64,000 nucleotides of DNA, from contig WPIO01000337.1 of assembly GCA_009760855.2 (NCBI GenBank), positions 1 to 64,000 of the forward strand, read 5' to 3'. Source of the DNA: Cristatella mucedo. Its lineage: Eukaryota > Bryozoa > Phylactolaemata > Cristatellidae. The first letter of the stretch is position 1; each line of letters opens with the position of its first letter. The notes beneath the pieces are model-generated. The model made no database searches and had not been told where the DNA came from. It saw only the letters and a program-made list of their open reading frames with translations. The translations under genes were made by a program, and so were the position numbers. Shown here piece by piece: positions 1-42,772 of this stretch.

Positions 1-3000
1 GTCGTTCAGAAGCTTTAGCAAAGAACTCCTTTGCATTAAGAAAACCGTATGAAGGAGCACTGCTTTTGGTGCATTGTAATTATCCTGTAAGTATTAAATA
101 AACGTGCAATGGAATGCTTCGTTAGCCTCTGCAGGAAGTTTGTCGGACACAGGTCAATCAATTTTACAGTATTGAGTCGCCTGAAATAAATAATCTTGCT
201 AAAATATTTCTCAGCTGCTTGCCGTTTTTGGTGAAGTGTTATTTAAATCGACTCAGCAGCACACGTCGTAGGTCGTCCTTACCTACAGCTAATGGGCCAA
301 CTAAACCTTGCAAATCGGTCTACTGATAGTGCCACTTTGGATAGCTTTGTGATGTTCAAAATGCAAAGAAAATGCTCAAGTATCCCACAGCATGTTATCG
401 ATTCTTACAAATTGAATTTATAACCTACACTTGTGTCATGTTTCACGATTTGTATTATCATAATAATTTTTTTGCTTTGTTTACGATTCCTCGCAAGCGT
501 ATAAAGTCTTATTGTTTTTTACGCCAATGAGTTGAACTTCAGGTATGCCGCTTGCTATTTCTCTTGCATTACCGCCGCCTAAGTTAGTAAAATGGTTTAT
601 TGTTATCAATATATTGGATCTTTAAGATCGTTCACTACCGATTTAGGTAAAAATGATGCCAAGAAGATCACCTTGTCTTGTGCCTGGTACTTACCTGTAA
701 TGATAGATAAGCTGTGCTCTCTGAGAAGACAGTTGGAGAATAAGCCTGCACGGTACTGACAGCACAACGCTTTCCGTCTCATTCTGTAGCTTGAGGAGCT
801 CGATATCAGCTACAACGAAGAGCTCACAACTCTTCCTTCATCGATATGCCAGCTGCATGCACTGAAGAAGCTGGACGTTTCTCATTGTGGTCTAAATATA
901 CTACCCGATGGATGGGAAGGCATGCTGGCGGTAAGCTCTAATGGAAAGTTGAAAAGCTTGGATTTTTTGAAACATCCTAAATATTTTAAATTAATTTTCC
1001 TCGTAAGTCGTGTGCTCTCAGAGGCCATGGCGGCATAGTATAAACGATGATCTTCAATTAAAAAGAATTGTTTTCGTGACGGCTCATGTCCTTTCTTTTA
1101 GTCGGTCACATACATTTGTTGAAACTACTATAACGAGAAAATGACATTTGACACTGTGTTCTTTAACCATCGTTGTAAGCAAGGTACTTCCTTATAGCAT
1201 TCCTACTTGTTACATCACTTTCAAGCACAGTAGGGTTTTGTGTAATTTACAATTACCTCATGCAACTAGCTATTATGTTGTGACAGTATAACGGTTATTC
1301 GAGCTTTCGCTCTATACGGTACGTTTTGGAGCTTTAACGGTCAACAACATTCGAAATCACCTAAGTCTGAATGAGAAGCCGGAAGTTGATGTCGGGCCTA
1401 AATGTAAAAAGAAAAAGAGCATAATCAGAACGTGAGCAGAATGATCAATAGATTCATCTGGCACGTGATATCCTTCCTCGATACCGTTGTACTTGTCGTA
1501 TTATATTAAAGAGTCCTGTGTAGAAAGAACCTCTGAATGAAAATTCTTAACATGCCGGTATAGAAAGCCTGCTTACATGCAACTTCGACAGCCCTTACGG
1601 TTGTGCCGGTGCTAATTTGGGCTTAATTAGAGGTGATTACAGATGCAACGGTACCAGAAATTAGTTACAGCATCGATCGAAAAGTTAGTACTTGAAACGG
1701 TAGGCCTAAAAATGTTTAGCCTAGTGGTCTTATCGTCGGTTACATGCTTCTAGGATAATCGGAAGTGAATAATTTCCAGCTACTCTTAGTAGGTGTTCTA
1801 GGTTGCTTGCGAATTGGCTTGAACTGGTGTAAATATGCTGCACTACATTAACGTTTGATTCATGGCAACACTATGTGGTTGTTTGACATTAGAAAACGCA
1901 TGTTTTTTTTGAGTCACCTGGTAAATAATAGACTGGCCTCGAGCCATGTATTTTGTTATGTTAGTAGCCAAAGCTAGAAACCCCGTGAGGGTGTACGTAC
2001 CTGACCTATCCACTTGCAGGAAGTTTAGCTGAGTGTTTTTCTATTTATCGGCTCAAACGGCACAACAGGTGCAACTTCGCAGCTACTGGCAATGAAATCA
2101 CGCCGGTTGGGAGTGGGAACCATTAATGATAATTACAACGACATCGATTTCTCAATCTATTGAATAAACTTATAAATCCCCGAAGCTAATACAATAAATG
2201 GAATGCTCATAATTCCCGAGTCGTTTAGCCTGCCTGGCTGTGGTGATTTTATTCAAACGAAGTATTTCCATTGAAATCAATTATTGTTGTGGCAGCTGCC
2301 TAATTTAATTTTGCCTAGCGACCTATAGCTGTACGAAACATTAAACTAAAATAATCATGTTTGCATTTCTTTAATAACCTGAGCGTTGTTTTAAAGGGAA
2401 TGGTTTGTTTTAAGAATACTTCCTGCTGAAAGACCCCTTGTACAGATCGTACGACAAGGCTTTGCAGAAAATTAAAAAAATCGTACGGCTTTAAGGTTAA
2501 CAGCATGTAACGCGAAGATCATCTTTAATATAATAAATAAAAGCTGTTATTATGTCAATGACAACAACAATAGTCACGCTTAATTACTCACCGATTACAT
2601 TGACCTAGACGTTTGTTTTATTTGGGTTGTAACAAAGGCCTTATTAAAGTTGATGAAGGATAGAGGGCAAGTATTCAAGAGAGTTGCGAAATACTTTGCT
2701 GATTCTGTTCTACTCGTAAACTAAGGAAAGGCTGCGTTCTCATCACAATTTCAGTTTAACATGCCGTAAAAGCTTAACGGGTTCGGACGTCTAACGGTCT
2801 AATAGCGTCTGAGCAGGTGTTTCAGGCTTGTTCAAATACGTCATAGCATTAAGTAAATATGCGGCGTTGTATTAAAATTCGATCATAGGAACTAGGGCCT
2901 TCCTTCTTACGGATTTTTCAAATCTTGTTCTTTCCTTGATTAACACATCAATGTTTTGCTAGCATCATACGTTGTTTTCTAGTAGCTAAATAGCAGGTGA

Positions 3001-3830
3001 ACGAAACGTCTCACTGCCGTCCATAAGCTGTGTCACCTACTGTTGTTAGGCGTTCAGCTAAGCGGATTTTTCAATTGTCGGCAACGGAGGCACACAAGTT
3101 TTTTCTTGGCTCCACCCAAAAAGACAATCGCAAAATTATCGCAAGCATAATCTCGCAGATAAGAGGCTTCAATAATCGACTGATGTGGTTAAAAGGCAAT
3201 GGTAAGTGACAGGTGGTACATCACCCTCAAAAAACTAAACGTGGGTCTAGCTTTGACTTTCGCAGAGATTCAAAAAACTAGATATGGTTTAACATGATTA
3301 ATCACACTTATTGATTCTACATTATCTAATACTGCTAAGGCAAAGCTCAACTACATTTACACAGACGGCCATACTAAGTTTAGTGTTATTCCGACCTCGT
3401 GTAATATTAGAACTTTCGGGCTTGCACTTTAAACTACGGCGTTTCATGAGCCAAGAAAAATGGTACTTCTCGAGTAATTGAGAGACCACCGAAGCATGCA
3501 GTAACTAGTTCGTGCTGGTTGGTTTCTATTTAACTCACACAGGCTCTTGTTGAGTTTACTTATACCGCGATTGCTTTTAGTTAGCACTTAATTTTCTAAA
3601 TAGTGACTGAAATTGCTATTACGGGCAACCGCACGACTGGTCAAAGTGCTACATAATTAAACGTCCCCATCTTGTCATCATAGGTATTCAGGGTAAATGC
3701 AGCATAGTTCTTTTGACTCAGAGTTCAAGGACTAAGCTATTGGACTAGTGCAACCTGTTTCGGGTCTGTATAGGACAGGTGACTCATTCCCACAAGTACT
3801 TTTCGGATTTGAATGCAATCAATTCCAGAG
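1..3830 (+). repeat. Tandem intragenic unit A (intron plus LRR exon)
   Basis: First of a series of ~3.8-4.3 kb units. The first bases recur at 3831 (unit B), 16618 (unit D) and 20918 (unit E). Bases 1 to ~2010 are almost identical to 3831 to ~5830; the rest matches 5830-7546 less well. The only coding part I see is the LRR exon at 790-930; the remainder is AT-rich intron. The unit start is arbitrary, because only the period is defined, not a boundary. Confidence 0.9.
790..930 (+). CDS. LRR exon of ROCO gene, unit A (two leucine-rich repeats)
   Basis: A 141-nt exon, 47 codons, phase 0 at both ends. Acceptor ATTCTGTAG is at 781-789 and donor GTAAGC begins at 931. It reads LEELDISYNEEL, then TTLPSSICQLHA, LKKLDVSHCGLN and ILPDGWEGMLA. 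This is two plant/ROCO-type LRRs of 24 and 23 residues with the LxxLxLxxNxLxxLP pattern. LRRs of this class form curved solenoids that bind ligands or partner proteins. The exon joins in frame to the equivalent exons of the next units, and finally to the Roc-COR exon at 39576. The 5' exons of the gene lie outside the window. The exon is too short to appear as an open frame with its own start codon; it is recognised by splice sites, LRR pattern and conservation in three units. Confidence 0.85.
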
Positions 3831-4608
3831 GTCGTTCAGAAGCTTTAGCAAAGAACTCCTTTGCATTAAGAAAACCGTATGCAGGAGCACTGCTTTTGGT
3901 GCTTTGTATTTCTCCTGTAAGTATTAAATAAACGTGCAATGGAATGCTTCGTTAGCCTCTGCAGGAAGTTTGTCGGACACAGGTCAATCAATTTTAACAA
4001 GTTGAGTCGCCTGAAATAAATAATCTTGCTAAATATTTCTCAGCTGCTTGCCGTTTTAGGTGAAGTGTTAATTTAAATCGACTCAGCAGCACACGTCGTA
4101 GGTCATCCTTACCTACAGCTAATGGGCCACTAAACCTTGCAAATCGGTCTACTGATAGTGCCACTTTGGATAGCTTTGTGATGTTCAAAATGCAAAGAAA
4201 ATGCTCAAGTATCCCACAGCATGTTATCGATTCTTACAAATTGAATTTAAACCTACACTTGTGTCATGTTTCACGATTTGTATTATTAGGTTTTGCTTTG
4301 TTTACGATTCCTCGCAAGCGTATAAAGTCTTATTGTTTTTTACGCCAGTGAGTTGAACTTCAGGTATGCCGCTTGCTATTTCTCTTGCATTACCGCCGTC
4401 TAAGTAAGAACTGGTTTATTGTTATCAATATATTGGATCTTTAAGATCGTTCACTACCGATTTAGGTAAAAATGATGCCAAGAAGATCACCTTGTCTTGT
4501 GCCTGGTACTTACCTGTAATGATAGATAAGCTGTGCTCTCTGAGAAGACAGTTGGAGAATAAGCCTGCACGGTACTGACAGCACAACGCTTTCCGTGCCA
4601 TTCTGTAG

Positions 4609-4749
4609 CTTGAGGAGCTCGATATCGGCTACAACGAAGAGCTCAAAACTCTTCCTTTATCTGCATGCCAGCTGCATGCACTGAAGAAGCTGGACGTTTC
4701 TCATTGTGGTCTAAATATACTACCCGATGGATGGGAAGGCATGCTGGCG
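4609..4749 (+). CDS. LRR exon of ROCO gene, unit B (two leucine-rich repeats)
   Basis: A 141-nt phase 0/0 exon with acceptor TTCTGTAG (ends 4608) and donor GTAAGC (4750). It encodes LEELDIGYNEEL, then KTLPLSACQLHA, followed by a second repeat identical to that of unit A. Against unit A the exon has six substitutions, all in the first 57 nt. Five of them change amino acids (S to G, T to K, S to L, I to A by two changes) and one is silent. The second LRR and the following ~475 bases show about one difference. Splicing of unit A to unit B to unit D gives a continuous LRR solenoid with 47-residue periodicity. Confidence 0.85.
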
Positions 4750-6494
4750 GTAAGCTCTAATGGAAAGTTGAAAAGCTTGGATTTTTTGAAACATCCTAAA
4801 TATTTTAAATTAATTTTCCTCGTAAGTCGTGTGCTCTCAGAGGCCATGGCGGCATAGTATAAACGATGATCTTCAATTAAAAAGAATTGTTTTCGTGACG
4901 GCTCATGTCCTTTCTTTTAGTCGGTCACATACATTTGTTGAAACTACTATAACGAGAAAATGACATTTGACACTGTGTTCTTTAACCATCGTTGTAAGCA
5001 AGGTACTTCCTTATAGCATTCCTACTTGTTACATCACTTTCAAGCACAGTAGGGTTTTGTGTAATTTACAATTACCTCATGCAACTAGCTATTATGTTGT
5101 GACAGTATAACGGTTATTCGAGCTTTCGCTCTATACAGTACGTTTTGGAGCTTTAACGGTCAACAACATTCGAAATCACCTAAGTCTGAATGAGAAGCCG
5201 GAAGTTGATGTCGGGCCTAAATGTAAAAAGAAAAAGAGCATAATCAGAACGTGAGCAGAATGATCAATAGATTCATCTGGCACGTGATATCCTTCCTCGA
5301 TACCGTTGTACTTGTCGTATTATTTAAGAGTCCTGTGTAGAAAGAACCTCTGAATGAAAATTCTTAACATGCCGGTATAGAAAGCCTGCTTACATGCAAC
5401 TTCGACAGCCCTTACGGTTGTGCCGGTGCTAATTTGGGCTTAATTAGAGGTGATTACAGATGCAACGGTACCAGAAATTAGTTACAGCATCGATCGAAAA
5501 GTTAGTACTTGAAACGGTAGGCCTAAAAATGTTTAGCCTAGTGGTCTTATCGTCGGTTACATGCTTCTAGGATAATCGGAAGTGAATAATTTCCAGCTAC
5601 TCTTAGTAGGTGTTCTAGGTTGCTTGCGAATTGGCTTGAACTGGTGTAAATATGCTGCACTACATTAACGTTTGATTCATGGCAACACTATGTGGTTGTT
5701 TGACATTAGAAAACGCATGGTTGTTTTGAGTCACCTGGTAAATAATAGACTGGCCTCCAGCCATGTATTTTGTTATGTTAGTAGCCATAGCTAGAAACCC
5801 GTGAGGGTGTACGTACCTGACCTATCCACTGGTAGGAAGTTTACCTGAGTGGTTTTGTATTTACCGGCTCAAACGGCGCGACAGGTGCAACTTCGCAGCT
5901 ACTGGCAATGAAATCACGCCGGTTGGGTGTGGGAACTAGTAATGACCTGAACAACGAAATCGTTGTTTTAATCTATCGAATATGCCTTTTCATCCTGCGA
6001 AGCTAATTGAATAAATAGAATGCTAGTAGTTTCCGAGTCGCTTACTGTGCCAGGCTGTGGTGTTGTCCTTTAAACGAGTTACTCTCAATGAATAAACTTG
6101 TTGCAGTGACAAACAACGTAATTTTGATTCGCGACCTACAGCAGTAAGAAAGATTAAAATTAAATAATTGTTGTGGCACTGCTTTTATAACCTGGACGTC
6201 GTTGTAAAGGGAACATTTTAGTTTAGGAACACTTCGTGTTGTCACGCACCGTATACAGATTGTACTATTAGGCTTTTCAAAAATTGAAGGAGCGTAAGGC
6301 TTTATGTTTAACAGAGCCTAATGCATATTTCATTTTTTATATAAATATTATATGCTGATATCATTTGCATTTCAGGAATAATATTGACGCTTATTTTTTT
6401 ACAGATTACATTGAACTAAACTCATGTCTTATTTGGCTTGTGAAAAAAGCTTAATTTGCGTTGATACCGGATAGATGGAAAGTATGAAAGTGTT

Positions 6495-6580
6495 ATAATA
6501 ATGATAATAATATTGCACTTGATAAAGCGCCCTCGGAGAACTTAATCTCTTTCTAGGCGCTTTACATTTGCTGCAAAGTG
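6495..6580 (-). mobile_element. LINE family A, 3' tail only
   Basis: Severely 5'-truncated copy. It has an AAT-rich run, then TTGCACTTGATAAAGCGCC, the inverted-repeat partner AGGCGCTTTACA, and stops at the GCTGCAAAGTG position. It sits in unit B at a point where unit A has uninterrupted intron. Confidence 0.85.
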
Positions 6581-7546
6581 GTTTGCGAAATTCTTTGCCG
6601 ATTTCGTTCTACTTGTTAACTAATGGAAGGCTGCGTTTTTATTATGATTTCAGTTTTAATATCCAGTAAACGCATCAAGGGTCGGGACGCCAAGCTGTCT
6701 AATAGCGCCTGAGCAGATGTTTTATTCTGGTTAAAATGCGTCGTAGTATAATGTAAATAAGCTGCACGGTATTACTATTTGATCCTAGCGGTGAGATTAT
6801 TCCTTCGTACGGATTTTTAAAATCTTGTGTTCTTTTAATTAACTGATGAACTTTTTGCCGGCATCAGCTGCTGTTTGCTAGTAGCTAAATGGCAGACGGT
6901 CGAAACCTCTCACGGGATCTTTAATTACCGGTAACGGAGGCACACATGTTTTTTCCTAGCACCACCTAAATATATAGTAATAATATAATCTATTGCTTAA
7001 TTCCGCAGTTATAACGATTCAATACTCGGAGATGGTTAAAAGGCAATGGTAAGTGACAGGTGGTGCGTCACCCTTCAAAAACTTGACGAGCATCACGCTT
7101 TTACCTTCGTGGTGATACAAGAAACCAGATATCGGTTAAACATGGTGAATCTTACTTATTGATTCTACATAATCTAATACTTGCTAATGTAAAGCTCCAA
7201 TAAAAATTAAACATATATGTTTACTAAGTTTAGTGTTATTCGGCTCACGTTTAGTATTAGAACTTTTGGGCTTCCACTTTAAACTACATCATTAGATCAG
7301 CCAAGAAGAATGTTTCTTCTCGGGTAATTGATGGACCGCCAAAGCGTTCAAATCTAGTTCGTACTAGTTGCTCTCACTATAACGCACACAGGCTCTCGTT
7401 GAGTTTAGTTATATGGCGATCGTTTTTAGGTAGCACTTAATTTTCTAAATAGCAACTGAAATCACTATTAAAGGCAATCGTACTACTGGTATCAGTGTTA
7501 CATAATTCACTATCCTTATTTTGTCATCATAGGTATTCAGTGTAGA

Positions 7547-7878
7547 TGTGATTGTGGCATGAAACTGGCAGTCGGTTTCTACTATTTATTTCAAAGAATA
7601 AGTAGCGTCTACTTGACCTGCAGTGATAGCTTAAACTAAACGTTAACCTATATTCATGAAATGATGTCAATTGTGACAATGTAAATTTTATTTAGCTTTA
7701 GAGCTCTAAGGCATGTATAAATAGTAAAGACCTAACAAATGCTTTCAGCATTTGGTAGGTAATTATGATTTGTCCTTTCTGTGCATGTATCTACTTGCAC
7801 TATGACTACTGCTTGTGGATGTAACCACCAAACATTTGGTAATGTTTTTTTAATCAGCACGTGTAAAGTGTGCAGAGA

Positions 7879-7910
<32 letters not shown>

Positions 7911-8232
7911 CGAGAGAGATTCAGTTCCCCTAGGATGCTATAAAAATGTTCTATTATTTCTATACGGTTGCTATCGTAGGCCTTTGCCTTTTTTCTTATT
8001 GACAGCTCTAAAATTGATGTTTGGCTTCTCAGTGATATGAAAAGAAACGTAGTTTATGTTGAAGCAGCATGAAAGGGAAACATTAAAATACCTTGTTAAA
8101 TGCTTAGATGATTCAGCTATGCATGCTTGCCACTGGAGCGGTGCTGTAGTAGCTGAATCTCAGAATAAAATGCTTCAATAGTGCAAAGATTGCTACTGCT
8201 TAGATGCACTGTTGCTGGGGGAGACGGCTCTG
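7547..8232. other. Intron, no gene recognised
   Basis: No LRR exon, RNA gene or transposon recognised. The stretch follows the sharp end of the unit B match. It contains a GA microsatellite at 7876-7919. Confidence 0.5.
7876..7919. repeat. (GA)n microsatellite
   Basis: About 44 bases of GA repeats with one T interruption and one C interruption. Confidence 0.95.
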
Positions 8233-8580
8233 CTTGTTGATTCAATTGGGCTGAATTTGAGGTGCTTGAAGATGTGAAGGTACCAGTCCTTAGTTAAAGC
8301 ATTGAGCACATATAGAAGAGTAGGAATGTTCTGCTTACAGAATGTCTAGGACAGTGGCCTCATTGTGCCTTGCAGGCATTTAGCACTGTCGGAAGTGAAT
8401 GTTCTGGATAGCTTTTTAGTGAGTGTTCGAAGGTTACCACTGTTCCTTACCCCCCCCCCGTGTGCCAGCTGTATATCTGAACTGGCTTTGTGCTTCTACA
8501 TGTGGCTTCCTGGACTGCCTGACCACTGGGAAAGTATGCAGTCGTTAAGCTAAGAAGTAAAATTGTAACGTTTAGATTTG
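8233..8580 (+). pseudogene. Degenerate unit segment with relic LRR exon
   Basis: Bases 8233-8440 resemble the unit A intron at about 1610-1800 (shared blocks AAGGTACCAG and TCGGAAGTGAAT). After an abrupt junction and a run of C at about 8451, bases ~8460-8544 resemble the 3' half of the LRR exon: GTGCCAGCTG.. and CTGCCTGACCACTGGGAA match the CQLHA and LPDxWE coding segments. The equivalent of donor GTAAGC reads TTAAGC at 8545, so the GT is lost. The following intron start is still alignable. I read this as a dead two-LRR exon whose upstream part was replaced by deletion. The assignment rests on short by-eye alignment. Confidence 0.5.
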
Positions 8581-8632
8581 AGAAACATTATTTGAACACT
8601 AGAACTTTGTTTCTTAGTACATATAAGTAAAT

Positions 8633-8770
8633 AAATAAAATTCATTTGCATAGAGCCCTAAGAAAGCTTAATATCTATGCAGGTGCTTCCAGTAGGTCTT
8701 AGGTCTCGAGCTCGCGACCTCAGCCAGATATTAGACATTGGGGCGAACACCTTAACCACGTGGCCAATCT
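8633..8770 (-). mobile_element. tRNA-derived SINE, copy 2
   Basis: On the minus strand it begins with an A-box-like GGCCACGTGGTTAAGGTG, has a B-box-like GAGCTCGAGACC, and ends in a tail (GAAGCACC.., TTAGGGCTC.., CAAATGAATT) homologous to the SINE at 29475. The tail resembles the LINE A 3' hairpin region. An AT-rich run flanks its 3' end. Confidence 0.65.
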
Positions 8771-9350
8771 TATGCACTTAGATACTACGTTGGTACGTTG
8801 AAAATGATTTCTCTTTCCTGTGAAAAAGGATTGTTTACGTCCGGGCACATTATCCTGGCTTTGTGACCTAGAGAGGCTAAGAAGTGTTGAGATCTAAGGA
8901 AAATTGTTCCAGCATGGCAATATCAACCTGGCGGTCGTGCGATTGAGACTCTGTAGAACAATGAACAAATAGAACAAACATTAAATGCATGAAGTAACTT
9001 TATGGTCTCTTACACTATTTAAGGACTTCATTTTAGCTATTGAGCTAAATTTAACTTTTAAACGCTTTGATGTTTAATTTATCTTGAAATGCTTCTTGCT
9101 GATAGATAATTCAGTATGTAATATTAAGCTTATTTGATGTGTGAATGGAAACATAATTTATTTCAAAGGACGAGCGTCAATTACCGAAATCGCTTGCTAA
9201 ATCTTTTGCTCGTACTGTTATACTTGTTCTCTAAGAAAGGCCACTATGTTAAGAGAATTTTAGCATGAACATTCCGAAAGAGTCCCAAGAGAGCTGAAGC
9301 TCTGACGTAATATTTCTGGCTGATCTAGGGGTGGTCTTAAACTTAGCCCC
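8771..9350. other. Intron, no gene recognised
   Basis: AT-rich. Bases 9170-9245 weakly resemble unit A around 2675-2740 (GAAATCGCTTGCTAAAT-like block), suggesting old unit sequence. No exon seen. Confidence 0.4.
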
Positions 9351-9662
9351 CGGAAGGTTAACGAGCTTGTATGTGGTGCAGCCAGCACTGATAGCAGAAG
9401 GAGTCACTGACCTCTCTACAAGATGTAATCGAATTCGCAATACTCTTAGCGAGCAGTACACGTCCTCGAGCCGGAGGCGGACCACAGGTCCACTCACGAC
9501 TGGGGAGCTGAACGAGAGACCAGGGGGAAATGATGGCATCACTGGGTGGCCATTCACTCATGCCTCCATCTAATCACTGATGGGCTCCAGGCCGCAGAGA
9601 CGTCATGCACTCCAGCCCTGTCAGGCTATGGCAGGGCAACATGGTGGCGATGCTACTCCCAC
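9351..9662. repeat. Dispersed repeat R, copy 1
   Basis: About 310 bases, from AAGGTTAACGAGCTTGT to GATGCTACTCCCAC, matching 10981-11292 in the same orientation. The pair brackets LINE A sequences. The class is unknown. Both copies keep an alignable minus-strand frame of about 47 codons ending WLHHIQAR, which could simply reflect nucleotide conservation. Confidence 0.75.
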
Positions 9663-9683
9663 AAAGGCTTCCCCATTAATATA

Positions 9684-9880
9684 TAATAATAATAATTCAC
9701 TTGATAAAGCGCCCTCAGAAAACTTAATCTCTCTCTAGGCGCTTTACATTTGCTGTAAAGTGGAATGCAATTGAATGGTAAGTAAAATCATGCTTGAAAA
9801 ACAAACGAAAGGAATAATATGGTTAGGGGTGACATGCACAGGGTCATCATGCAAATGTGGTTAGTGGCAGCATGCACAGT
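9684..9880 (-). mobile_element. LINE family A, 3' end, interrupted
   Basis: AAT tail, hairpin region and non-coding 3' segment, stopping exactly at GCATGCACAGT. There another LINE A tail begins at 9881. The same junction occurs at 25449/25450. Confidence 0.85.
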
Positions 9881-10947
9881 AATAATAATAATAATAATAA
9901 TAATTCACTTGATAAAGCACCCTCAGAGAACTTAATCTCTCTCTAGGCGCTTTACATTTGCTGTAAAGTGAAATGCAATTAAATGGTAAGTAAAATCATG
10001 CTTGAAAAAACAAACGAAATGAATAATATGGTTACGGGTGACATGTACCGGGTCAGCATGCAAATGTGGTTAGTGGCAGCATGCACAGTGTCAGCACTCA
10101 TAACCACATCAAGGACGAATCACAGGGACCCACTAAATGCTGTCCTAAATAGGTGTGTTTTTAGGTTCCTTGTAAATGTGGTCAGGTCGGGGGATGTTCT
10201 GACGCAGGTCGGGAGGGAGTTCCAGGCTTTGGGAGCATATGAACTAAATGCACGGTCTCCAAAGGATTTAAGGTTTGTATGAGGTATTTCTAGACTGTTG
10301 GATTCCGAAAAGCGGGTGATACGATGCTTAGCCTGATGGGGTAGTATATCTGAAAGATAGGCTGGAGCCATAGAATGAAGCGACCTAAAAGTGACGGACA
10401 AAACCTTGAAGTCAATCCGTTGCTTGACTGGGAGCCAGTGGAGGTCGGCAAGAAGTGGAGCAATGTGGCAACTGCGACGCTCATGACAGACAAGCCTAGC
10501 TGCAGAGTTTTGCACCAGCTGCAATCGCCTGATCGCACATGCTGGTAGGCCAGTGAGCAGTGAGTTGCAGAAGTCGAGACGAGATGTCACGAATGCATCT
10601 ACCAACTTGGACGTGGTATCTTTATCTAGACTGGCCCGGATTTTAGCAATGTTATGAAGCTGAAAATAGGCGGATTTGACTGTGGAGCTGATATGGTCGT
10701 CTAACGAGGTCGCTTTGGAATATGTCACCTAGATTTCGAGCTGATTCAACTGGAGATATGCTGGCAGAGCCAATTTTGAGAGTCAGCCTTTCCAATCTCT
10801 GGAACACACTGGATTTGCCCATAACTAGTAAGTTAGTTTTATCATCGTTAAGCTTTAGTAAATTTGCTGCCATCCATGTGCCGATGTCATCAATGCATGC
10901 AGGTAGTGAGCTTAGAGAATTTGTGGTGCTCGAAGGCTGGGAGGGAG
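9881..10947 (-). mobile_element. LINE family A, RT C-terminal half
   Basis: Minus-strand non-LTR retrotransposon. From the 3' end it has (AAT)n, the hairpin, ~200 bp of 3' UTR, and then a coding part ending at about 10120. The open frame 10120-10728 encodes the region after the catalytic core, with motifs LHWLPVKQRI and RLDFCNSLLTGLPACA. Upstream frames contain NLLVMGKSS. Frame breaks near 10700 and loss of the 5' part make it non-autonomous. LINE families of the CR1/L2 type carry this C-terminal RT extension; the exact clade is my inference. Confidence 0.85.
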
Positions 10948-10980
10948 TCACTTGGCTGAAACCAGTCACTCCACTTGCCC

Positions 10981-11292
10981 AGAAGGTTAACGAGCTTGTA
11001 TGTGGTGCAGCCAGCACCTATAGCAGAAGGAGTCACTGATCTCTCTACAAGATATAATTGAATTCACAACACTCTTTGTGAGCAGTACACGTGGGCGAGC
11101 CGGAGAAAGACCACACCACCACTCACGACTCCGGGAGCTGAACGAGAGACCGGTGGGAAAAGATTGCATCACTGGGTGGCCATTCACTCATGCCTCCACC
11201 CAATTAGCTGTGAGCTCCCGCCAGCAGAAATGTTATGCACTCTAGCCCTGTCAACCTAGGGTGGGGCAACATGGTTTCGATGCTAGGCCCAC
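10981..11292. repeat. Dispersed repeat R, copy 2
   Basis: Direct repeat of 9351-9662, with similar ends. It lies just beyond the 5' edge of the LINE A copy at 9881-10947. Confidence 0.75.
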
Positions 11293-11309
11293 TGTGATGG
11301 CTATGCTGG

Positions 11310-12210
11310 TGGTATCGGTTTTCCTGAACTTAAAAGTGCTGTGTGATGCAAAGGTACCCGTGCAAAGTTCTATTAGCTACCTCGAATTCACGAGTGCGAT
11401 TGGACTGTGTGCAAAATTTCTAGCCCAACAACCTTTTTGTGGCTTACAAGCAATAAGGACGAGCCGGACATGAATTTTCTAGATAGCTTCGTAGTAAGTG
11501 TTCACAGTAGGTTACCAGCGACTAATATTTCAATGTAAACATGCATACCCTGCGCATGTCAGTAATAACCGTGGTATACTTGTTTATTGAGCATGCTGCC
11601 ACTAAACGTTCGATTGTACTTCCATTGCAGCAGCTGGAAAGTGTCTAGAAAAACATTGAGTTATCTGAGGGCTTGACATGAAATGTATTATTATTAGTAT
11701 TGTTATCATTATTATAATAGACCACGTGCGAGTTTTTATCGATCTTAGGATAGGCAGTTTGCTAAGCATTTTGAAATCTCTTCTTGAACCAACTACTAAA
11801 GGTGTGGCCTTCAAAATCGGGTTGTTTCCAGGTAGAGATCGTTGACAGCTATAGAGTTAGCATATTTTTCATAGATCCTTGCTTGACATATATGTCAGCT
11901 ACTTTCTCTCTACTTGAACAGGAGAAGCACAACAGTTCATCTCGATAATAAAATCGACCACAGTGCGAATAGTTACACACTTAATCTTTATTATTTAGAT
12001 TATTTTACACTCGTTGCAAGACAGTTATAAGCTTGGTTAAGGCGAATGCTGTATCATGCTTAAAAAATAATATTATGTGTTTGAACCAACGTGGAATGCA
12101 AGAAACAAGTCATTCAGTACCAATCTTAACTAATACCTATTGCCGGCTACGTATACACATACCACAAAATATTCGAATGCCCGCCACCCGATACTTAGTT
12201 GTCATTAAAG
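11310..12210 (+). repeat. ~0.9-kb intron duplicate (partner 23871-24785)
   Basis: Collinear with 23871-24785: CTGAACTT..AAGTGCTG, GATTGGACTGTGTGC, GTATTGTTATC-like and AAGAAACAAGTCATTCAG blocks recur in order. The first 200 bases also resemble the unit A intron at 1610-1800. Both copies contain the same old plus-strand LINE A tail (11540-11715 here), so that insertion predates the duplication. Confidence 0.8.
11540..11715 (+). mobile_element. LINE family A, old 3' tail
   Basis: Diverged 3' segment: GCATGCTGCCACTAAAC, GTGTCTAGAAAAACATTGAG, and terminal ATTATTATTAG. It has a duplicate at 24098-24290. Confidence 0.7.
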
Positions 12211-13170
12211 AATAATAATAATAATTATAATGCACTTGATAAAGCACCCTTAGAGAACTCAATCTCTCTCTAGGCGCTTTACATTTGATGTAAAGAAAAA
12301 TATAATTGAATGGTGAGTAAAGTCATGCTTGAAAAACAAACAAAACGAATAATATGGTTAGGGGTGACATGCACAGGGTCAGCATGCCAAAGTGGTTAGT
12401 GGCAGCATGCACAGTGTCAGCACTCATAATCACGTGAAGGACGAATCGCAGGGACTTGCTAAATGCTGTCCTAAATAGGTGTGTTCTAAGTTCTTTTTAA
12501 ATGTGGTCAGGTCAGGGGATGTTCTGACACAGGTCGGGAGGGACTTCCAGGCTTTGGGAGCATACGAAGTAAATTCACGGTCTCCGAAGGATTTGATGTT
12601 TGTACGAGGTATTTATAGATTGTTTGATCTTGAAAAGCGGGTGGTATGATGCTTGGCCTGATGGGGGAGTATGTCTGAGAGATAGGGTACAGCCAAAGAA
12701 TGAAGGGACCTAAAAGTGAGCGACAAAACCTTGAAGTCAATCCGTTGCTTGACTGGTAGCCAGTGCAGGTCGGCGAGAAGTGGTGTAATGCTGCAACTGC
12801 AACTATCATGACAGACAAGGCTAGCTGCAGAGTTGGCACCAGCTGCAATCGCCTGATCGCACATGCTGGTGGGCTAGTAAACAGGGAGTTGCAGAAGTCA
12901 AGAAGGGATGCCACGAATGCATGGACCAACATGGGCATCATATCCTTATATAAAGAAGACCAAATTTAAGCAATGTTATGAACCATAGGAGGATTTGACT
13001 GTGGAGCTGATATGGCCGTCTAACGAGAGGTCGCTTTGGAATATGACACCTAGATTTCGAGCTGATGGAACAGGAGATACGGTGGAAGGGCCAATTTTGA
13101 GAGTCAGCCTTTCAGATTTGTGAATCATACTGTGTTTGCCCATAATTAGTAAGTTAGTTGTATCATCGTT
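12211..13170 (-). mobile_element. LINE family A, RT C-terminal fragment
   Basis: The 3' (AAT)n lies at the left end (12211). Coding fragments at 12507-12941 and 12613-12864 are in different frames, so the copy is frameshifted. It ends at the RT position TATCATCGTT and abuts a plus-strand copy head to head. Confidence 0.85.
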
Positions 13171-13179
13171 GTGATCATC

Positions 13180-14426
13180 AGAGTGTTGACGTGAATGGAC
13201 AAAGATCATCTGAAGTACCTCTAAAATATGGAGTACCTCAGGGCTCTGTGCTAGGTCCGGTCCTTTTCACCGTTTATACTCTCCCTCTCGCTGATGTGAT
13301 TGCCAAGCACAATCTAGGCTTTCACTTCTATGCGGATGACACTCAGTTGTACCTTTGCTTTGATCCCTCCCAGCCTTCGAGCACCTCAAATTCTCTCAAC
13401 TCACTTGCTGCATGCATTGATGACATCCGATCATAGATGGCAGCAAATTTTCTAAAACTAAACGATGATATAACTAACTTACTAGTTATGGGCAAACCTA
13501 GTGTTATTCAGAAATTGGAAAGGCTGACTTTCAAAATTGGCTCTGCCAGCATATCTCCAGTTGCATCAGCTCGAAATCTAGGTGTCATATTCCAAAGCGA
13601 CCTCTCGTTAGACGACCACATCAGCTCCACAGTCAAATCAGCCTATTTTCAGCTTCATAACATTGCTAAAATTAGGGCTTGTTTAGATAAGGATACCACG
13701 TCCAAGTTGGTCCATGCATTCGTGACATCTCGTCTCGACTTCTGCAACTCACTGCTTACTGGCCTACCAGCATGTGCGATCAGGCTATTGCAGCTGGTGC
13801 AAAACTCTGCAGCTAGGCTTGTCTGTCGTGAGCGTCGCAGTTGCCACATTACTCCACTTCTCGCCGACCTGCACTGGTTACCAGTCAAGCAACGGATTGA
13901 CTTCAAGGTTTTGTCGCTCACTTTTAGGTCTCTTCATTCTATGGCTCCAGCCTATCTTTCAGAGATACTACCCCATCAGGCAAAGCATCGTACCACTCGC
14001 TTTTCGGAATCCAACAGTCTAGAAATACCTCGTACAAACCTTAAATCCTTTGGAGACCGTGCATTTAGCTCGTATGCTCCCACAGCCTGGAACTCCCTCC
14101 CGACCTGCATCAGAACATCCCCTGACCTGACCACATTTAAAAGAAACTTAAAAACATACCTATTTAGGACAGCATTTAGTGGGTCCTTGTGATTCGTCCT
14201 CGATGTGCTTATGCGTGCTGACACTGTTCATGCTGCCACTAACCACATTTGCATGCTGACCCAGTGCATGTAACCCCTAACCATGTTATAAATTTTGTTT
14301 GTTTTTCAAGCATGATTTTACTTACTATTCTATTGCGTATCACTTTGCAGCAAATGTAAAGCGCCTAGAAAGAGATTAAGTTCTCTGAGGGCGCTTTATC
14401 AAGTGCAATATTATTATTATTATTAT
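13180..14426 (+). mobile_element. LINE family A, best-preserved RT copy
   Basis: This plus-strand copy starts inside the RT domain. The first frame (to 13436) has GVPQGSVLGPVLFTVY and the catalytic [13 protein letters not shown] single TAG at 13434-13436 stands where other copies have a Trp codon before MAANFLKLNDD. The frame then continues to TGA at 14190-14192 with LHWLPVKQRIDFK and RTAFSGSL at the C terminus. About 230 bp of 3' UTR follow, then the hairpin and (ATT)n. It lacks an endonuclease and the first half of RT. Apart from one stop it is open, so it is among the youngest copies here. Confidence 0.9.
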
Positions 14427-14940
14427 CGTTCAGTTTTATAAAATTTGCTGCCATCCATGTGCGGATGTCGTCGATACATGCAGCAAGTGAGTTAAGAGAA
14501 TTTGAGGTGGTCGAAGGCTGGGATGGATCAAAGAAAAGGTACAACTGAGTGTCATCCGCATAGAAGTGAAACCTAGATTGTGCTTGGCCATCACATCAGT
14601 AAGAGGAAGAGCATACACCGTGAAAAGAACCGGACCTAGCACGGAGCCCTGAGGTACCCTATATTTCAGAGGTACCCCAGATGATCTTTGTCCTTTCACG
14701 TCAATACTCAGGAGTCTCCCACTGAGATAGGACCTGAGCCACTGCTGAGCAGTGCCAGTGATGCCCAGGTGAGTTCGGAGGCACTCTAAATGAACTCTGT
14801 GATCGATGTTATCAAAACCTGCCGAAAGATTGAGCAAAACAAGCAGAGACACTCTACCCATGTCTGCATTCCTTTGTAGGTCGTTTTATACCCTAAGTGA
14901 TGCTGACTCTGTGGAGTGATTAGCTCTAAAGCCAGACTGG
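14427..14940 (-). mobile_element. LINE family A, RT core fragment without tail
   Basis: Reading the minus strand from 14940, it encodes QSGFRANHSTESASL, LVLLNLSAGFDNIDH and VPQGSVLGPVLFTVYALPL, the RT fingers and palm motifs. It ends at the LNDD position without a 3' tail. A frameshift precedes the YADD region. It abuts the (ATT)n of the preceding plus copy, giving an inverted junction. Confidence 0.85.
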
Positions 14941-16617
14941 AATAAATGGAATGCTGATGGAATAAATGCTGAAATAAATGGAATAAGTTCTGATATAAAT
15001 GCAATGCTAATAAATTCCCAGTCGCTTAGCCTGCCAGGCGGTTGTGACGTGATTTAGTTAAACACATTGTTGTATTGACAACAGCCTTATTTAATTTTGC
15101 CTTGCGACCTACAGCTGTAAGAAATGTTAAAATAAAATAATCGCTTTTGGACTGCTTTAATAACCCGTAAGTCGTTGTCAAGGGAACGTTTTATTTTAAA
15201 AAGACTTCCTGCTGACACGCACGGCATACCGATCGTACTATTAGGTTTGCAAAAAATTGACGGACCATATGGCTTGGACGTTAACAGCATGTAACCTACA
15301 GTTGATCTTGTATACAGTAAATATAGACTGCTATTATGTCAATGTCAACAATAATAGTCACATTTATTTACTCACCGATTACATTGACCTAGACGTTTGT
15401 TTTATTTGGGTCGTATTAAAAGCCTCATTTAAGTTGATAAAGGATAGAAAGAAAGTATTCAAGTGAGACACAAAATTCTTTGCTGATTACGTTACAGCTT
15501 GTAGCCAAGGAAAGGCTGCGTTTTCACCAAGATTTCAGTTTTAACATGCCATAAAAGCTTAAAGGATTCGGACGTCTAATTGTCTAATAGCATATGAGCT
15601 GATGTTTCAAGCCAGCTAAACTACGTGTTAGCTTAACTAAATATGCCGTGTCATGTAATATTTTGATACTAGTGACGAGACCCTTCCTACGTGCGGATGT
15701 GTCAAGTCTTGTCTGTTCTTGAATTATTACACAAACGTTTTGCCGGACCCAGCTGCTGTTGTTTCTAGTAGCTAAATAGCACGTCTACTAAATCTTTCAG
15801 AGCCGTCAGTAAGCCGAATCAGCTACTGTAGTAGGGCGTTCGGCTGAACCTATTTTTCAATTATCATCAATGGCAGCACACCAGTCTATTCCTAGTACCA
15901 CTTAAATAGACAATAGTAATAAAATCGTTAGCTTAATCTCGCAGTTGGGACACTTCAATACTCGTTTGAGGTGGTTAAAAGGCAATGGTAAGTCACTGGT
16001 GGTACATCACCCTTCAAAAACTAAACGTCCGTCAAGCTTTCTTTTTCGTAGTGATACAAGAAACTAGATATTAGGTGGAAATGGTTAATCCCACTTATTG
16101 ATTGTACACAATTTCATACTTGCCAATGCTAAGCTAAAATATAATTACACAGACGGCTTTACTAAGTCTAGTGTTATTCGGCACGCATGTAATATTAGAA
16201 CTTTCGGATTTGCACTTTCAACTACGGCGTTTGATAAGCCAAGAAGAATGTATCTTCTCGGGTAATTGAGGGACCGCAATAGAATGCAGTTAATACTTCG
16301 TCCTTTGTGGTTTCACTTTAAACCACACAGGCCCTTGTTGAGTTAGTTATACGGCAATCGTTTTCAGGTGGCACTTACTTTTCTAAATAGTGACAAAAAT
16401 CGCTAGAAAAGGCAACTGCACTACTGGTAACAGTGTTAGGTAATTCACTGTCCCCATCGTGTCATCTTAGGTATTCAGCGTGAATGCAGCATGGCTCTTT
16501 TAAAGCTGAGGTAAAGGACTTGAGCTATTAGTCTAGTGCAACCTATTGGTGTTTTGTATAGGACAGGTTTCTCATTCCCACAAGTACTTTTTGGATTGGA
16601 ATACAATCAGTTCAAGA
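14941..16617 (+). repeat. Tandem unit C, 3' half
   Basis: Matches unit A from about 2190 to its end (AATAAATGGAATGCT, CCCAGTCGCTTAGCCTGCC, then the AAAAGGCAATGGTAAGT and GGTATTCAG blocks). The 5' half, including any LRR exon, is missing and LINE copies stand in its place. A small local AATAAATG repeat marks the junction at 14941-15004. Confidence 0.85.
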
Positions 16618-17395
16618 GATCGTTCAGAAGCTTTAGCGAAGAACAGCGATGACTAAAGAAAACCGTGTGCTGGAGCATTGCTTAAGGCTCATTGTAATTC
16701 TTCTGTAAGCATTCCATAACAGTGCCATGGAGTGTTTCGTCAGTCTTCGCAGGAAGTTCGTAGCACACAGGTCGCTCAATTTTACCGAGTTAGGTCACCT
16801 CGATAAAATAATCTTTCTTAATATTTCTTTGCTGCCAGCCGTTTTTTGGTGAACTGCAATTTAAATCGATGCGACAGCACACGTTGTAGTTCTTTCCTAT
16901 CTACAGCTAATGGGCAACTAAACCTCGTAAATCTGTCAACTGACACTGCCACTTTAGATGGCTGTGTGATCTTAAAGGTGCAGCGAAAATGCTCAAGTAT
17001 CCTACGTCTTTTAATGATTCTTGCTCATCAAATTAAAGCATGAACTGGTGTTATGTTTTGCTATTTTTAATAATGGTTTTTGCTCGGTTAAAGATTTTTC
17101 ACAAGCTTAGAAAGTCAAAGTGTTTTTTTAAGCCTCTGGGTGGAGCTTCAGCTATGCCACTTGCTATTTCTCTTGCATTACCGCCGTCTAAGTAAGAACT
17201 GGTTTATTATCATCATTTGACTGGATCGATCGATCGTTCACTAGCGATTTAGGTAAAAGTTAGGCCAAGACGAACAGTATGTCGTGTGCCTGGTACTTAC
17301 CTGTAACGAGAAATAGGCCATACTCTCTTTGAAGACAGTTGGATAATAAGCGTGAGCGTTTATACTATTGCATCGCTTTTCCTTTTATTCTGTAG

Positions 17396-17536
17396 CTGGA
17401 GCTGCTCGATATCAGCTCCAACCACAAGCTCAAAACTCTTCCTCCATCCATATGCCAGCTGCATGCACTGAAGAAGCTGGACGTTTCTAAGTGTGGTCTA
17501 AATATATTGCCCGATGACTGGGAAGGCATGAAGGAG
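17396..17536 (+). CDS. LRR exon of ROCO gene, unit D (two leucine-rich repeats)
   Basis: A 141-nt phase 0/0 exon between acceptor ATTCTGTAG (ends 17395) and donor GTAAAC (17537). It encodes LELLDISSNHKL, KTLPPSICQLHA, LKKLDVSKCGLN and ILPDDWEGMKE. The length, phase and LRR register equal those of the exons in units A and B. The next exon in frame is at 27788. Relative to A and B the changes again concentrate at variable LRR positions (Y/S, E/H, E/K, S/L/P, H/K, G/D). Confidence 0.85.
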
Positions 17537-22792: not shown

Positions 22793-23654
22793 AATAATAA
22801 TAATAATAATAATAATATTGCACTTGATAAAGCGCCCTCAGAGAACTTAATCTCTTTCTAGGCGCTTTACATTTGCTGCAAAGTGATACGCAATAGAATA
22901 GTAAGTAAAATCATGCTTGAAAAACAAACAAAATGAATAACATGGTTAGGGGTTACATGCTCTGGGTCAGCATGCAAATGTGGTTAGTGGCAGCATGAAC
23001 AGTGTCAGCACGCATAAGCACATCGAGGACGAATCACAAATACCCACTAAATGCTGTCCTAAATAGGTATGCTTTTAAGTTTCTTTTAAATGTGGTCAGG
23101 TCAGGGGATGTTCTGATGCAGGTCGGGAGGGAGTTCCAGGCTGTGGGAGCATACGAGCTAAATGCACGGTCTCCAAAGGATTTAAGGTTTGTACGAGGTA
23201 TTTCTAGACTGTTGGATTCCGAAAAGCGAGTGGTACGATGCTTTGCCTGATAGGGTAGTATATCTGAAAGATAGGCTGGAGCCATAGAATGAAGAGACCT
23301 AAAAGTGAGCGACAAAACCTTGAAGTCAATTCGTTGCTTGACTGGTAACCAGTGCAGGTCGGCGAGAAGTGGAGTAATGTGGCAACTGCGACGCTCACGA
23401 CAGACAAGCCTAGCTGCCGAGTTTTGCACCAGCTGCAATCGCCTGATCGCAAAATAGGCTGATTTGACTGTGGAGCTGATGTGGTCGTCTAACGAGAGGT
23501 CGCTTAGGAATATGACACCTAGATTTCGAGCTGATGCAACTGGAGATATGCTGGCAGAGCCAGTTTTGAAAGTCAGCCTTTCCAATGTCTGAATAACACT
23601 AGGTTTGCCCATAACTAGTAAGTTAGTTTTATCATCGTTTAGTTTTAGAAAATT
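22793..23654 (-). mobile_element. LINE family A inserted in LINE B
   Basis: (AAT)n at the left, hairpin, 3' UTR, then the open frame 23034-23612 (192 codons) with LHWLPVKQRIDFK and MGKPSVIQ. An internal deletion at about 23452 fuses AIRRLQLVQ directly to the upstream SAYF segment, removing the RLDFCNSLL part. The frame stays open across the deletion. Confidence 0.9.
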
Positions 23655-27787: not shown

Positions 27788-27889
27788 TTGGAGGTGCTGA
27801 ATATTAGCAACAACTGTCTGAAAGCTTACCCAAACGGTACCTTGGGCTCGAAGAGTCTTCGATACCTTGACCTTTCAAATTATTACGGG
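27788..27889 (+). CDS. LRR exon of ROCO gene, last separate LRR exon
   Basis: A 102-nt phase 0/0 exon after acceptor CTTTTTAG (ends 27787), followed by donor GTAAGA at 27890. It encodes LEVLNISNNCLKAYPNG, then TLGSKSLRYLDLSNYYG: one complete LRR and the start of the next. It joins in frame to GIDGRGNMITELPDEV at 39576, completing the LxxLP part of the repeat across the splice. It is not part of the 141-nt exon series. Confidence 0.75.
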
Positions 27890-39575: not shown

Positions 39576-41400
39576 GGGATTGACGGACGTGGAAACATGA
39601 TAACTGAGCTGCCAGATGAAGTTGTTCATACCTCACTGACCAATCTCTCATTGGAAGGCAATCCAATGGTTCTTCCACCTAGTGCAGTGTGTGACCAGGG
39701 AATTGAAGCTATTCGGCAGTACTTCCGAGATAGCACTCAGGGGAAGGAATCGCTATGCTGTGATACTATCAACATGCTTGGAGACACGGGAGCAGGAAAG
39801 ACTAGCATCGTTCAGTCGTTACTCTTCGGCCGGCCATCCACTGCTGCAGATGACGATAGAACTCGTGTGATAGATCAGAGCCTTGTAAAGATTGCAAATC
39901 AGATCATAAATGTGAATGACTTTGGTGGACATGAAATTTACCAAACAGTATTTCCAATATTTTTGCCCTCTAAAGGGCTTTGTATCATTGCGTTTGACGT
40001 AAGCGAAGAGCTTGTAAAGCAGAAAGAGAAGGTAAAGAAGTGGCTTATGACAATATTCGCTAAATCAACCGAGATACGAGTTATCGTAGTTGGCACGCAT
40101 GCTGATCTTCTTGAAGTAGGCCCACTGAAATATGTGGCAAAAGAGATGGATGAGTACATAACAGAAATTCATCAGTCTGCTCAAAAAGAGCTTACGTCTC
40201 ACATAAATGGACTTCAGGATTTGGATTCCTCCAAAACTAACATCGAATTCCTCGAAAACTCTTATGCCGTTATAAAAGCCGCTGACATTTCATTCAGAAC
40301 TATAAGCTGTAAAGAGAGTGGTGATCATGGCCTAGGTGACCTGATATCCCTAGTCGAGAAGAAACTTAAGGCCGCAGTGCAGTATCCTGCTTCCTGGTGT
40401 CGTATTATGAAAGATATAAAGGACCATAAGTCAGAAGACGAGAACCTACAACCACATTTGGAATGGAAGATTGTCAGAGAAGTGTATGCACGGCACTCGC
40501 TGCCAGAACCGGACGACTCCACACTTAAATTTGTCCTTCGATCTCTTGTATGGACATCCCAGATTATATGGTTAGAAAGCTCTCCAAATCTTCAACACTT
40601 GGTTTTCAATCAACCCCAACGTATTATTTCCTATTTAAAGAAGGTATTGCACCACGAAAATTTTGAAAAATTTCAAAATGATGACTATTACAGACATAAC
40701 ATTGAGTCATATCGTGGAGGGGCTCTGGATAAACCGTTCTTTGGTATATTGCTTGACAATCAGCATGTCAAAGTTGTCAGCGATTTTATGCAACATTTTC
40801 ACATGATTTGCCTCACTTGTCAGGGAATCTACATCTTGACTTGCAATCTCCCTGTGCAGCCTCCTACTAACCTGCAGAAGTGGCTAACCAATGCAGCTGC
40901 AGACCCACCTGTTTGCTGTCACCTGAGCTTCCTGGGGAATTGCATGCCGCTTGCTTTCTTTCCTACTCACTTGACAGCCGTGTTATCCTGGCTGTTCTCA
41001 AATGATGCTGAGCCTGAGTTCTGGAAGGATGGAATACTTGTCGAACTGCATGGCATACGTACAATAATGAGACGCAAAGTTAGTACCGTGGAATTGCTGG
41101 CATTTTCAAGATCGGGTGCAGAGGATGTCTGGAGAGCTTTACAGCCATTACTTAAGTGCATACTTGGTAATATAGCTGAGTCGTGGAAAGGTGTTCCGCC
41201 GAGCTGCATGCTTGTCTGCCCTAAATCGACGTCGATGGAAAACCTACTACCAGTCGTGTCACCTCACGGTCGTAAAGTGAATTGGAATAAACTGATGAAT
41301 TACGAGCAATCTATGGGGGAGCAACCACATTCAAGCACCTGGGATTGCAAAAAGTGTCGCTATAGCATACCTGGAATATGGATGTATCTTCATATGCCAG
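39576..41400 (+). CDS. Roc-COR exon of ROCO gene (LRR end, Roc GTPase, COR)
   Basis: Main exon, 1825 nt, entering in phase 0 and leaving in phase 1 at donor CCAG|GTATGA. The frame runs on to a stop at 41432, but a paralogous exon keeps a donor at the same point, so the last nine residues are probably intron. Counting from the internal Met at 39597: residues 1-40 end the LRR block (LTNLSLEGNPMVLPPS), and the Roc GTPase follows. It has P-loop GDTGAGKT (62-69), switch II DFGGHEIY (~108-115), GTHADLL for guanine specificity (~169) and ISCKES near 240. COR starts around AVQYPASWCRIMKDIKD (~260) and fills most of the rest. The C-terminal part has a CKKC pair. ROCO proteins use Roc-COR as a dimer-regulated GTPase in the cytosol. 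No kinase domain follows. Confidence 0.93.
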
Positions 41401-42772
41401 GTATGACCACAAGTTGTCAGTTCTCTCGATAATCCTCCTGAGGTTTGAGGTTATTGAATGCTTAAATCGTAGCTTTGTTGGCCTTGAAGACTTGCAGCTC
41501 CCACCGGGATTTTCTTAGGGCTTTCCCACTATGGCTTCCCACTTTGACTAATGGTTTGTTGAATTGCCTTAGGCATTACACTTTTGCCTGTCCATTGTCT
41601 CTTTTGATTTGGTCTCCGGTTCTAGGTAGGCCTTGTGACTACCTTTGGAGCAGGTGCTCATAAAATGCTATTTGTTTAATTTTGACAATAAATTTGGTAA
41701 GCTTTGTGCTAGTATTAGTTAATAGGCTTAGCTGTTTACTTACCTTTTACAAAACTAATATAACTATAGGAATGCAATACAATTCAATAGCAATATAATA
41801 CAGCTGTATATCACAATCTATGCGGGCAGTTACTATGAAGTTGCGTTACCTAATTTCTTATAAAGCTTTAAGATTATTACTGACTGTATTTTGCCAGAAC
41901 TTAGTATCGTGTTTTTTTTAATTACCATCCAGTTAAATGCCTTGCCAGATAGTAACATTTTTTTGTTTCGAGCAGGTTTGTATTAGCTAAAACTACACGA
42001 TGCACATGCACACTCTCACACTCATACACACTCACATACAGGCATGCACGTAAGCACATATACACATGCACACATACCAATCACACACGGTGCACTTATT
42101 ATGCTAAATTCAACCCTATCTTTTTCTGGGATCATAGTTACCAGTAGTTTAGTTTCTCTACTGAGAAGTGCGCTGTAGCCTTGTAGCTGTAAAAGATCTT
42201 ATTAAAAAAAAGTTGATTGCCAAGAACTGAAGAGTACTCCTTTGCTATCATCACAATTCCTTTTAATGTGGCTTACAAAACTCCGTGACTAGGTCACTTA
42301 AGGCTGTTATCAAACAATTACCATCTTCTCTTTGAAGGCTCCTGCTCACAACAACACTTTCGGGATGCAGCCAAATACCTCAAACGGCTAGGTAAGGGCA
42401 ACCTGTGTAAGGGGCTTGATGATCATAAGGTCATCCTTTGCAAAGCTTTGCTTCAGCTTTACACAAGTCTATAACTAGTGACTTAGTTTTATCGTCATTC
42501 AATTGAGGAGATATTGTTTGCCCGAAAGACTACTTCGACATACATGTCTGGATGAGAAGAGCCTTAGGTAGCTCACTTCACATGTCAATGCTGCAAGAGA
42601 CATCAGGTAGGGACACTCACAATATTGCTAATAGAAAGTGGCAATTTCTTAGATTACATTCTTCTGAATGTGAATGATCATTTTATTTTATATGGGATTT
42701 GTGTAGTTGGTTAAGTTAAATGCATTGTGCTTGACATAAACACTAATTTAACAAATTTATTTGTGCTGTAAA
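41401..42772. other. Intron after the Roc-COR exon
   Basis: Bases 41401-41680 recur, diverged, at 44331-44600 after the duplicate exon. A CA-rich stretch lies at 42000-42090. No exon seen. Confidence 0.6.

Follow-up and report, generated by a model that had tools for sequence, protein, structure and literature searches.

Metazoan ROCO proteins of the MFHAS1/MASL1 type have the order LRR-Roc-COR without a kinase, with Roc and COR in one large exon, and we know of no long tandem exon array in genes of this type. In jawless fish, the variable lymphocyte receptors (VLRs), which have variable concave surfaces, are assembled somatically from LRR cassettes that are joined by copying. The Sp185/333 proteins of sea urchins have neither LRR nor GTPase. 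Brown-algal LRR-ROCO genes are reportedly the subject of Zambounis et al. 2012 too, as cited by Teng et al. 2024.

In brown algae, ROCO genes contain 72-bp phase-2 exons that encode one LRR each, and shuffling of these exons, alternative splicing and positively selected concave sites are described in the consulted part of Teng et al. 2024 (PMC11378527). As far as the consulted parts of the respective papers go, plant NLR clusters such as RPP8 are made up of LRR paralogues that are extremely polymorphic and exchange sequence between genes (PMC6771003), gene conversion is discussed for the sea urchin immune gene cluster Sp185/333 (PMC3091723), and bacterial GTPase-COR proteins have fast-evolving N-terminal LRRs (PMC8195603).

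It is an open question how invertebrates come to possess a diverse set of recognition proteins without having antibodies. We analyzed a window of the bryozoan Cristatella mucedo that makes up the first 64,000 nucleotides of contig C263; the assembly comprises 688 contigs and 572 Mb. In this window a tandem array of LRR exons lies on the same strand as a Roc exon. Among the matches listed, in a partial literature with most subscription papers outside it, there was no report of such an array in animals, and the matches listed from the literature on molluscan expansions likewise held nothing on such arrays. Our starting point was a short cluster of differences between the first two units of the array, A and B, which a first-pass annotation had noticed in the letters of the window.

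Results

Tandem units and their LRR exons

All window features given below are on the forward (+) strand. Unit A (1..3819) consists of an LRR exon and intron and is near-identical to unit B (3820..7548, the end being approximate) up to about 2050. Identity between them drops sharply at 2050-2100, from about 99% to about 70-80%, and most 100-bp bins beyond 2100 have about 20-33 substitutions; this drop is possibly the point where the most recent amplification of units ended. Beyond about 5880, the sequence of unit B derives from an array layer that is older and more diverged. The core unit is about 3.82 kb long with one recognised 141-nt exon each. The exon of unit A (790..930) is bounded by AG and GT, is in phase 0 and encodes two LRRs of 24 and 23 residues, the first of which (LRR1, 790..861) is hypervariable across the core units. 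Because these lengths and the phase-0 junction keep the LRR register, exons joined to each other would make a continuous solenoid. Skipping a 141-nt exon would keep the reading frame. The exon of unit B lies at 4609..4749, and a third copy in the window, presumably the unit D of the first-pass annotation, at 17396..17536; in these three exons Pfam LRR_1 scored 31.1 (A), 24.0 (B) and 28.4 bits (third copy), above the cut-off of 20.6. A further LRR exon of 102 nt, in phase 0 at both ends, is predicted from splice-like borders at 27788..27889, where LRR_1 reached 17.5 bits, under the cut-off.

In the interval between B and the third copy (7549-16619), where no LRR exon was detected, remnants of a unit are interspersed with dispersed repeats. 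A dispersed repeat family in both orientations and with long frames was seen at 9677-14709, 22787-23654, 30965-33042, 52411-53347 and other places. We take these frames to resemble fragments of LINE reverse transcriptase; a Pfam search with one of them gave no match.

Six more units near-identical to A and B are found on contig C173, with exons at 158046, 161863, 165682, 169506, 173328 and 177152. The repeat register continues from the end of C173 to the start of C263 with a gap of three bases, so that the two contigs may be neighbours, with whole units possibly missing, and the array probably continues across this break. Several LRR1 types were seen: LEELDIS/GYNEEL in A and B, LEELDIRYNKEL in 158046 and LEELKIHNNKDL in 161863, 169506 and 177152, and 173328 has its own, frameshifted type. 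One-base frameshifts in LRR1 occur in two of the eight core exons (C173:165682 and 173328) and may be consensus errors or make these dead exons.

Genome-wide, this exon type gave at least 150 matches, alleles included (150 of 209 candidates scored). From a set of 37 matches we left out C239:99164, which is cut by the contig end. In the remaining 36 exons the donor GT was at the expected place in every case (33 at 141 nt, three at 138 only) and the acceptor AG in 32; the other four are the two frameshifted exons, with AG one base off, and two without a recognisable first LRR.

Co-oriented arrays of LRR exons also occur on C237, C107, C148, C193, C509 and C470; C237, C107, C148 and C193 each hold a Roc exon as well. 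These arrays suggest that the whole family has expanded. In the same assembly, contig C688 is mitochondrial: it has a COX1 match with 11 TGA codons read through, and its frames, open under the invertebrate mitochondrial code, are presumably COX1, ATP6 and COX3.

The Roc exon and its relation to the array

At 39576..41432 there is an open exon of 618 codons, in phase 0 and with a TAG acceptor directly before it, which starts with an LRR-like stretch, presumably the terminal one, followed by a Roc GTPase domain and a probable COR. Roc was recognised by PF08477 with 50.8 bits (cut-off 27, E 2.5e-13), and all five scanned paralogues matched as well. The best matches among solved structures were LRRK2 and LRRK1 together with a chain annotated as leucine-rich-repeat protein and chains annotated as Rab family protein, the last of which we take to be prokaryotic Roco. 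COR was detected weakly: three of five members gave COR-A hits with E values up to 0.5, the best being 0.0012, and the C-terminal part of the window exon matched COR at the right place with 13.4 bits, below the cut-off of 35.3. A decayed second Roc-COR copy with many stops lies directly 3' of the intact exon (42740-44343), and another one outside the window (C263:79065-80701).

The Roc exon has 68 matches in the genome, fragments included. Seventeen LRR exon groups have a Roc match on their contig. All 17 are on its strand and 15 lie 5' of it, the other two being on C214 and C215. In three of the 15, on C80, C634 and C114, the Roc sequence matched is fragmentary. The 17 groups may include each other's alleles, and one Roc match was taken per group (C114 has another one upstream of its exons). 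Eight further contigs with LRR exons had no Roc match. Because arrays and Roc exons are co-oriented on the same strand, they are most likely parts of single LRR-Roc-COR genes, and the array in our window is most likely the N-terminal LRR solenoid of one LRR-Roc-COR (ROCO) GTPase gene, in which one transcript would include the array and every exon would be used.

Clustered differences between units A and B

All eight A/B differences that had been reported for about 775-845 are present, at 778-845 (4597-4664 in B). The A/B states are C/G at 778, T/C at 779, A/G at 808, C/A at 827, C/T at 839, G/T at 843, A/G at 844 and T/C at 845. Six of the eight are in the exon, where five replace residues (S/G, T/K, S/L and I/A) and one is silent by the Nei-Gojobori method, just as the annotation had it. 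Its description of the surroundings also stood: 593-777 (185 bases) is identical between the units, and in the roughly 475 bases after the cluster (846-1320) there is one difference, at 1318. The clustering in 593-1500 is beyond chance: in simulations over this interval, eight of nine substitutions fell into one 68-bp window in 0 of 200,000 runs, and five of six events did so in 159 of 200,000 runs when adjacent changes were merged.

Window base 1 is the end of the contig, and C173 and C239 likewise end inside the array, as one would expect if the cluster were an artefact of assembly or base calling at a contig end within a repeat. Unit A, the first on the contig, has 18 A-only substitutions in 1-600, and at the intron positions 778-779 it stands alone among the core units, since the GC of B is present in the six units on C173 as well. 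Several A-only indels, relative to all other core units compared, were also seen in 1-600. The A-only changes in 1-600 are possibly consensus errors at a poorly supported contig end, and a consensus error is therefore possible at 778-779 too. Such an error there is not proven, because A's bases occur in outgroup units (779 T in all four examined, 778 C in one of four). At the six exon differences, the A and the B states are both seen again in units located on another contig, so that base-calling errors are unlikely to explain them; we rejected error as their source. Since a second patch, on C215, lies inside its contig with allelic flanks on both sides (see below), we consider an artefact very improbable as the explanation of the cluster.

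A unit of the C173:158046 type as putative donor to unit B

The first-pass annotation had favoured a mosaic and proposed to search the array for a donor with the unit B haplotype. Such a unit was found: 4637..4664 of unit B (818-845 in A coordinates) is identical to the unit C173:158046, with 0 mismatches against 5 to A. A 31-base pattern of the B haplotype (826-856 in A coordinates) occurs at two places in the genome, in B and at C173:158082, and its reversed control at none. Among the 54 sites that are variable in the trio of A, B and 158046, the five exon sites in 827-845 where B equals 158046 are consecutive, and the other sites of this kind are just two, 778-779. From 860 onward, in the 3' flank, 25 sites unite A and B with the middle units and set them apart from 158046; five sites separate A and B from the middle units and 158046 alike. 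Because B matches 158046 inside and A outside, the tract is bounded between 817 and 906 and is at least 19 bp long: the minimal A/B mosaic tract is 827..845 of unit A, and the maximum is about 88 bp (818-905 in A coordinates). Position 808 (S/G) is outside the tract, and its G recurs in 173328.

Unit D (17396) had been brought into the mosaic reading since it shares states with both units. Its base does agree with that of B at 827 and with that of A at 808; we rejected it as a donor, because it differs from B at five sites in 827-845. A test for conversion tracts had also been proposed, and a PHI-like test on the exons was marginal (74/2000).

The change from GAT to TGC in B creates CTGCATGC at 842 (4661-4679 in B for 842-860), copying the CTGCATGC that is found 11 bases downstream, at 853. 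A single templated event may thus have produced the triplet change, which would have spread afterwards.

The simplest account is one conversion from a unit of the 158046 type into B. In a rather unlikely variant, A was converted instead: 158046 and B would keep the older K-L-A haplotype, and A would have taken 827-845 from a T-S-I unit. Conversion of A is possible because its 827-845 has an exact match, with 0 mismatches, in C215:19529, and the states 802 G and 816 C, found in every one of the four outgroup units examined, are also those of 158046, A and B. On the other hand, these four outgroup units, a subset of those retrieved, have A and T at 844-845, so the TGC at 843-845 is derived, and the grouping of A and B with the middle units in the 3' flank (25 versus 5 sites) means that more than one loss of TGC would be needed. 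B rather than A would thus be the recipient, and an account with A as recipient would still be gene conversion.

It is also conceivable that the exons of A and B became different after the duplication without conversion, through diversifying selection on point mutations alone. This agrees with five of six A/B exon changes being nonsynonymous and with pN at variable LRR positions exceeding intron divergence in 24 exons (see below). However, five of the six exon differences, three of them adjacent, match one single unit in a run of 19 bp with differing flanks, and the same run is improbable by independent mutation; we therefore regard this explanation as improbable.

A second tract between apparent alleles

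Contigs C215 and C173 match at 97.5-97.6% over 21.6 and 7.0 kb with the same exon order, and we read C215 as the other haplotype of C173. Of the five exon pairs, four show 0 to 3 base differences. In the fifth pair, C215:19529 and C173:136924, the sequences diverge strongly from about -39 to +58 relative to the exon start. Within this interval C215:19529 has the state of the array unit C173:177152 at 30 of 32 informative sites, whereas elsewhere in the compared 900 bp it follows the allele at 238 of 253. To judge from this site pattern, C215:19529 carries a conversion tract of about 100 bp, which replaces the splice acceptor region and the first LRR. Units of the C173:177152 type lie about 25-40 kb from the paired exon on C173.

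Unit B and C215:19529 thus each contain a bounded non-allelic tract within sister or allelic sequence, the pattern of interlocus conversion. The donor haplotype of 158046, the grouping of the flanks and this second tract support the mosaic reading, and short-tract gene conversion is well supported by the sequences compared.

Variability and selection in the LRR exons

In the core set without 158046 (seven units), LRR1 has 19 segregating sites out of 72, against 29 of 1,229 around it (600-789 and 862-1900, A-only sites removed), with a Fisher value of 4e-13 that is no more than a guide because segregating sites in related units are non-independent. Removing A-only sites left the LRR1 count unchanged; the core alignment used unit 158046 from 700 onward and unit B up to 2050. 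In the second LRR, 0 of 69 sites segregate among the same seven units. LRR1 and LRR2 are about equally variable over 29 exons (pN 0.188 and 0.154), so the restriction to the first LRR is special to the recently amplified core block. These 29 exons are the 36 minus seven, namely the two with frameshifts, the two without a recognisable first LRR at the assumed start and the three of 138 nt; exclusion of five exons on C215 left 24.

The suggestion of diversifying selection held for the exon family and not for the A/B pair alone. In this pair, five nonsynonymous changes per 55.7 sites compare with one synonymous change per 16.3 (Fisher P 1.0), and pN/pS of LRR1 in the core units was 0.67. Whole-exon pN/pS over 29 exons was 0.92 for LRR1 and 0.90 for LRR2, neither above 1, and by this measure replacement does not exceed the neutral level. 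It does so at the LRR x positions when introns are the reference: in 24 exons, pN was 0.30 at x positions and 0.05 in the framework, and introns of the same units had 0.23, pN and intron divergences being uncorrected. In 60 bootstrap replicates the ratio of x positions to introns was 1.16-1.58 and that of framework to introns 0.15-0.29. The x and framework sets follow the textbook motif and were written after the per-codon table was known; a six-position concave subset chosen from that table was kept out of the tests. A strict beta-strand set gave pN 0.245, barely higher than the introns (0.226), so the excess comes from a wider set of exposed positions.

Framework codons had pN 0.045-0.059 in the three larger exon sets, with introns at 0.226-0.239 and silent change present. 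Such conservation, together with the splice sites kept in nearly all of the 36 exons (GT in 36, AG in 32), argues against a relic array, whose LRR exons would be functionless by-products that decay after repeat amplification. Frameshifts in two of eight core exons, and the lack of a detected LRR exon between B and the third copy despite unit remnants, would fit such decay, to which we give little weight as an explanation of the array.

Divergent intron patches were seen at 602-622 and 939-995 (A coordinates) in unit 161863, which is otherwise near-identical. They are possibly further conversion tracts, and patches in introns indicate that conversion is not aimed at the exon. We infer that conversion is probably general and that selection decides what stays in the exon.

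Discussion

We consider it quite probable that the tract in unit B arose by short conversion together with selection on the LRR surface, in a tandem ROCO exon array. Units of about 3.82 kb would have been amplified recently, near-identical and differing in LRR1, and unit B would then have received a short conversion tract from a unit of the 158046 type. Repeated short conversions may shift LRR surface patches among units and alleles, and selection may favour change at exposed LRR positions and conserve the framework, so that variants would be kept while introns and framework are homogenised.

With at least 150 LRR exon matches, many of them 5' of Roc exons, and with tracts small enough to alter a single LRR, conversion among LRR pieces may keep recognition proteins varied in an animal, where a receptor or immune function of the putative protein would be plausible. 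If transcripts confirm that the array is one gene, a repertoire produced by intragenic conversion and exon choice would be directly testable. A far-reaching extension, which we hold to be doubtful, is that ROCO genes contain large LRR exon libraries in which frequent micro-conversion moves surface patches between exons and alleles and phase-0 exons are alternatively spliced. This would be an intracellular LRR-based system, independent of lamprey VLRs and of brown algae and possibly in part somatic.

Among the described systems, the predicted gene would share with the MFHAS1/MASL1 type the order LRR-Roc-COR without a kinase and the placement of Roc and a probable COR in one large exon. As in the VLRs of jawless fish, LRR cassettes appear to vary by copying; VLR assembly is somatic, whereas our comparison is within one genome assembly only. 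The likeness to Sp185/333, in the consulted part of that source, would be that of an invertebrate immune cluster with gene conversion (PMC3091723). In RPP8, according to the consulted part of the report, exchange takes place between genes (PMC6771003), whereas here it would be between exons of probably one gene.

The LRR-ROCO genes of brown algae, in the consulted part of their description, have the LRR-Roc-COR order that is predicted here, with phase-matched tandem LRR exons, and also show diversifying change on the LRR surface and are proposed immune receptors (PMC11378527). In contrast to the exons given there, the exons here are of 141 nt (three of 36: 138 nt), in phase 0, with two LRRs, and are set in intron-containing units of 3-4 kb; none of the 36 exons examined was a single-LRR 72-bp phase-2 exon. 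The present locus differs from those described in that part of the source also in belonging to an animal and in its short conversion tracts between units and apparent alleles. If our account is true, the bryozoan array would be an animal parallel to the proposal for brown algae, which it resembles in the logic of LRR-ROCO diversification and not in exon anatomy.
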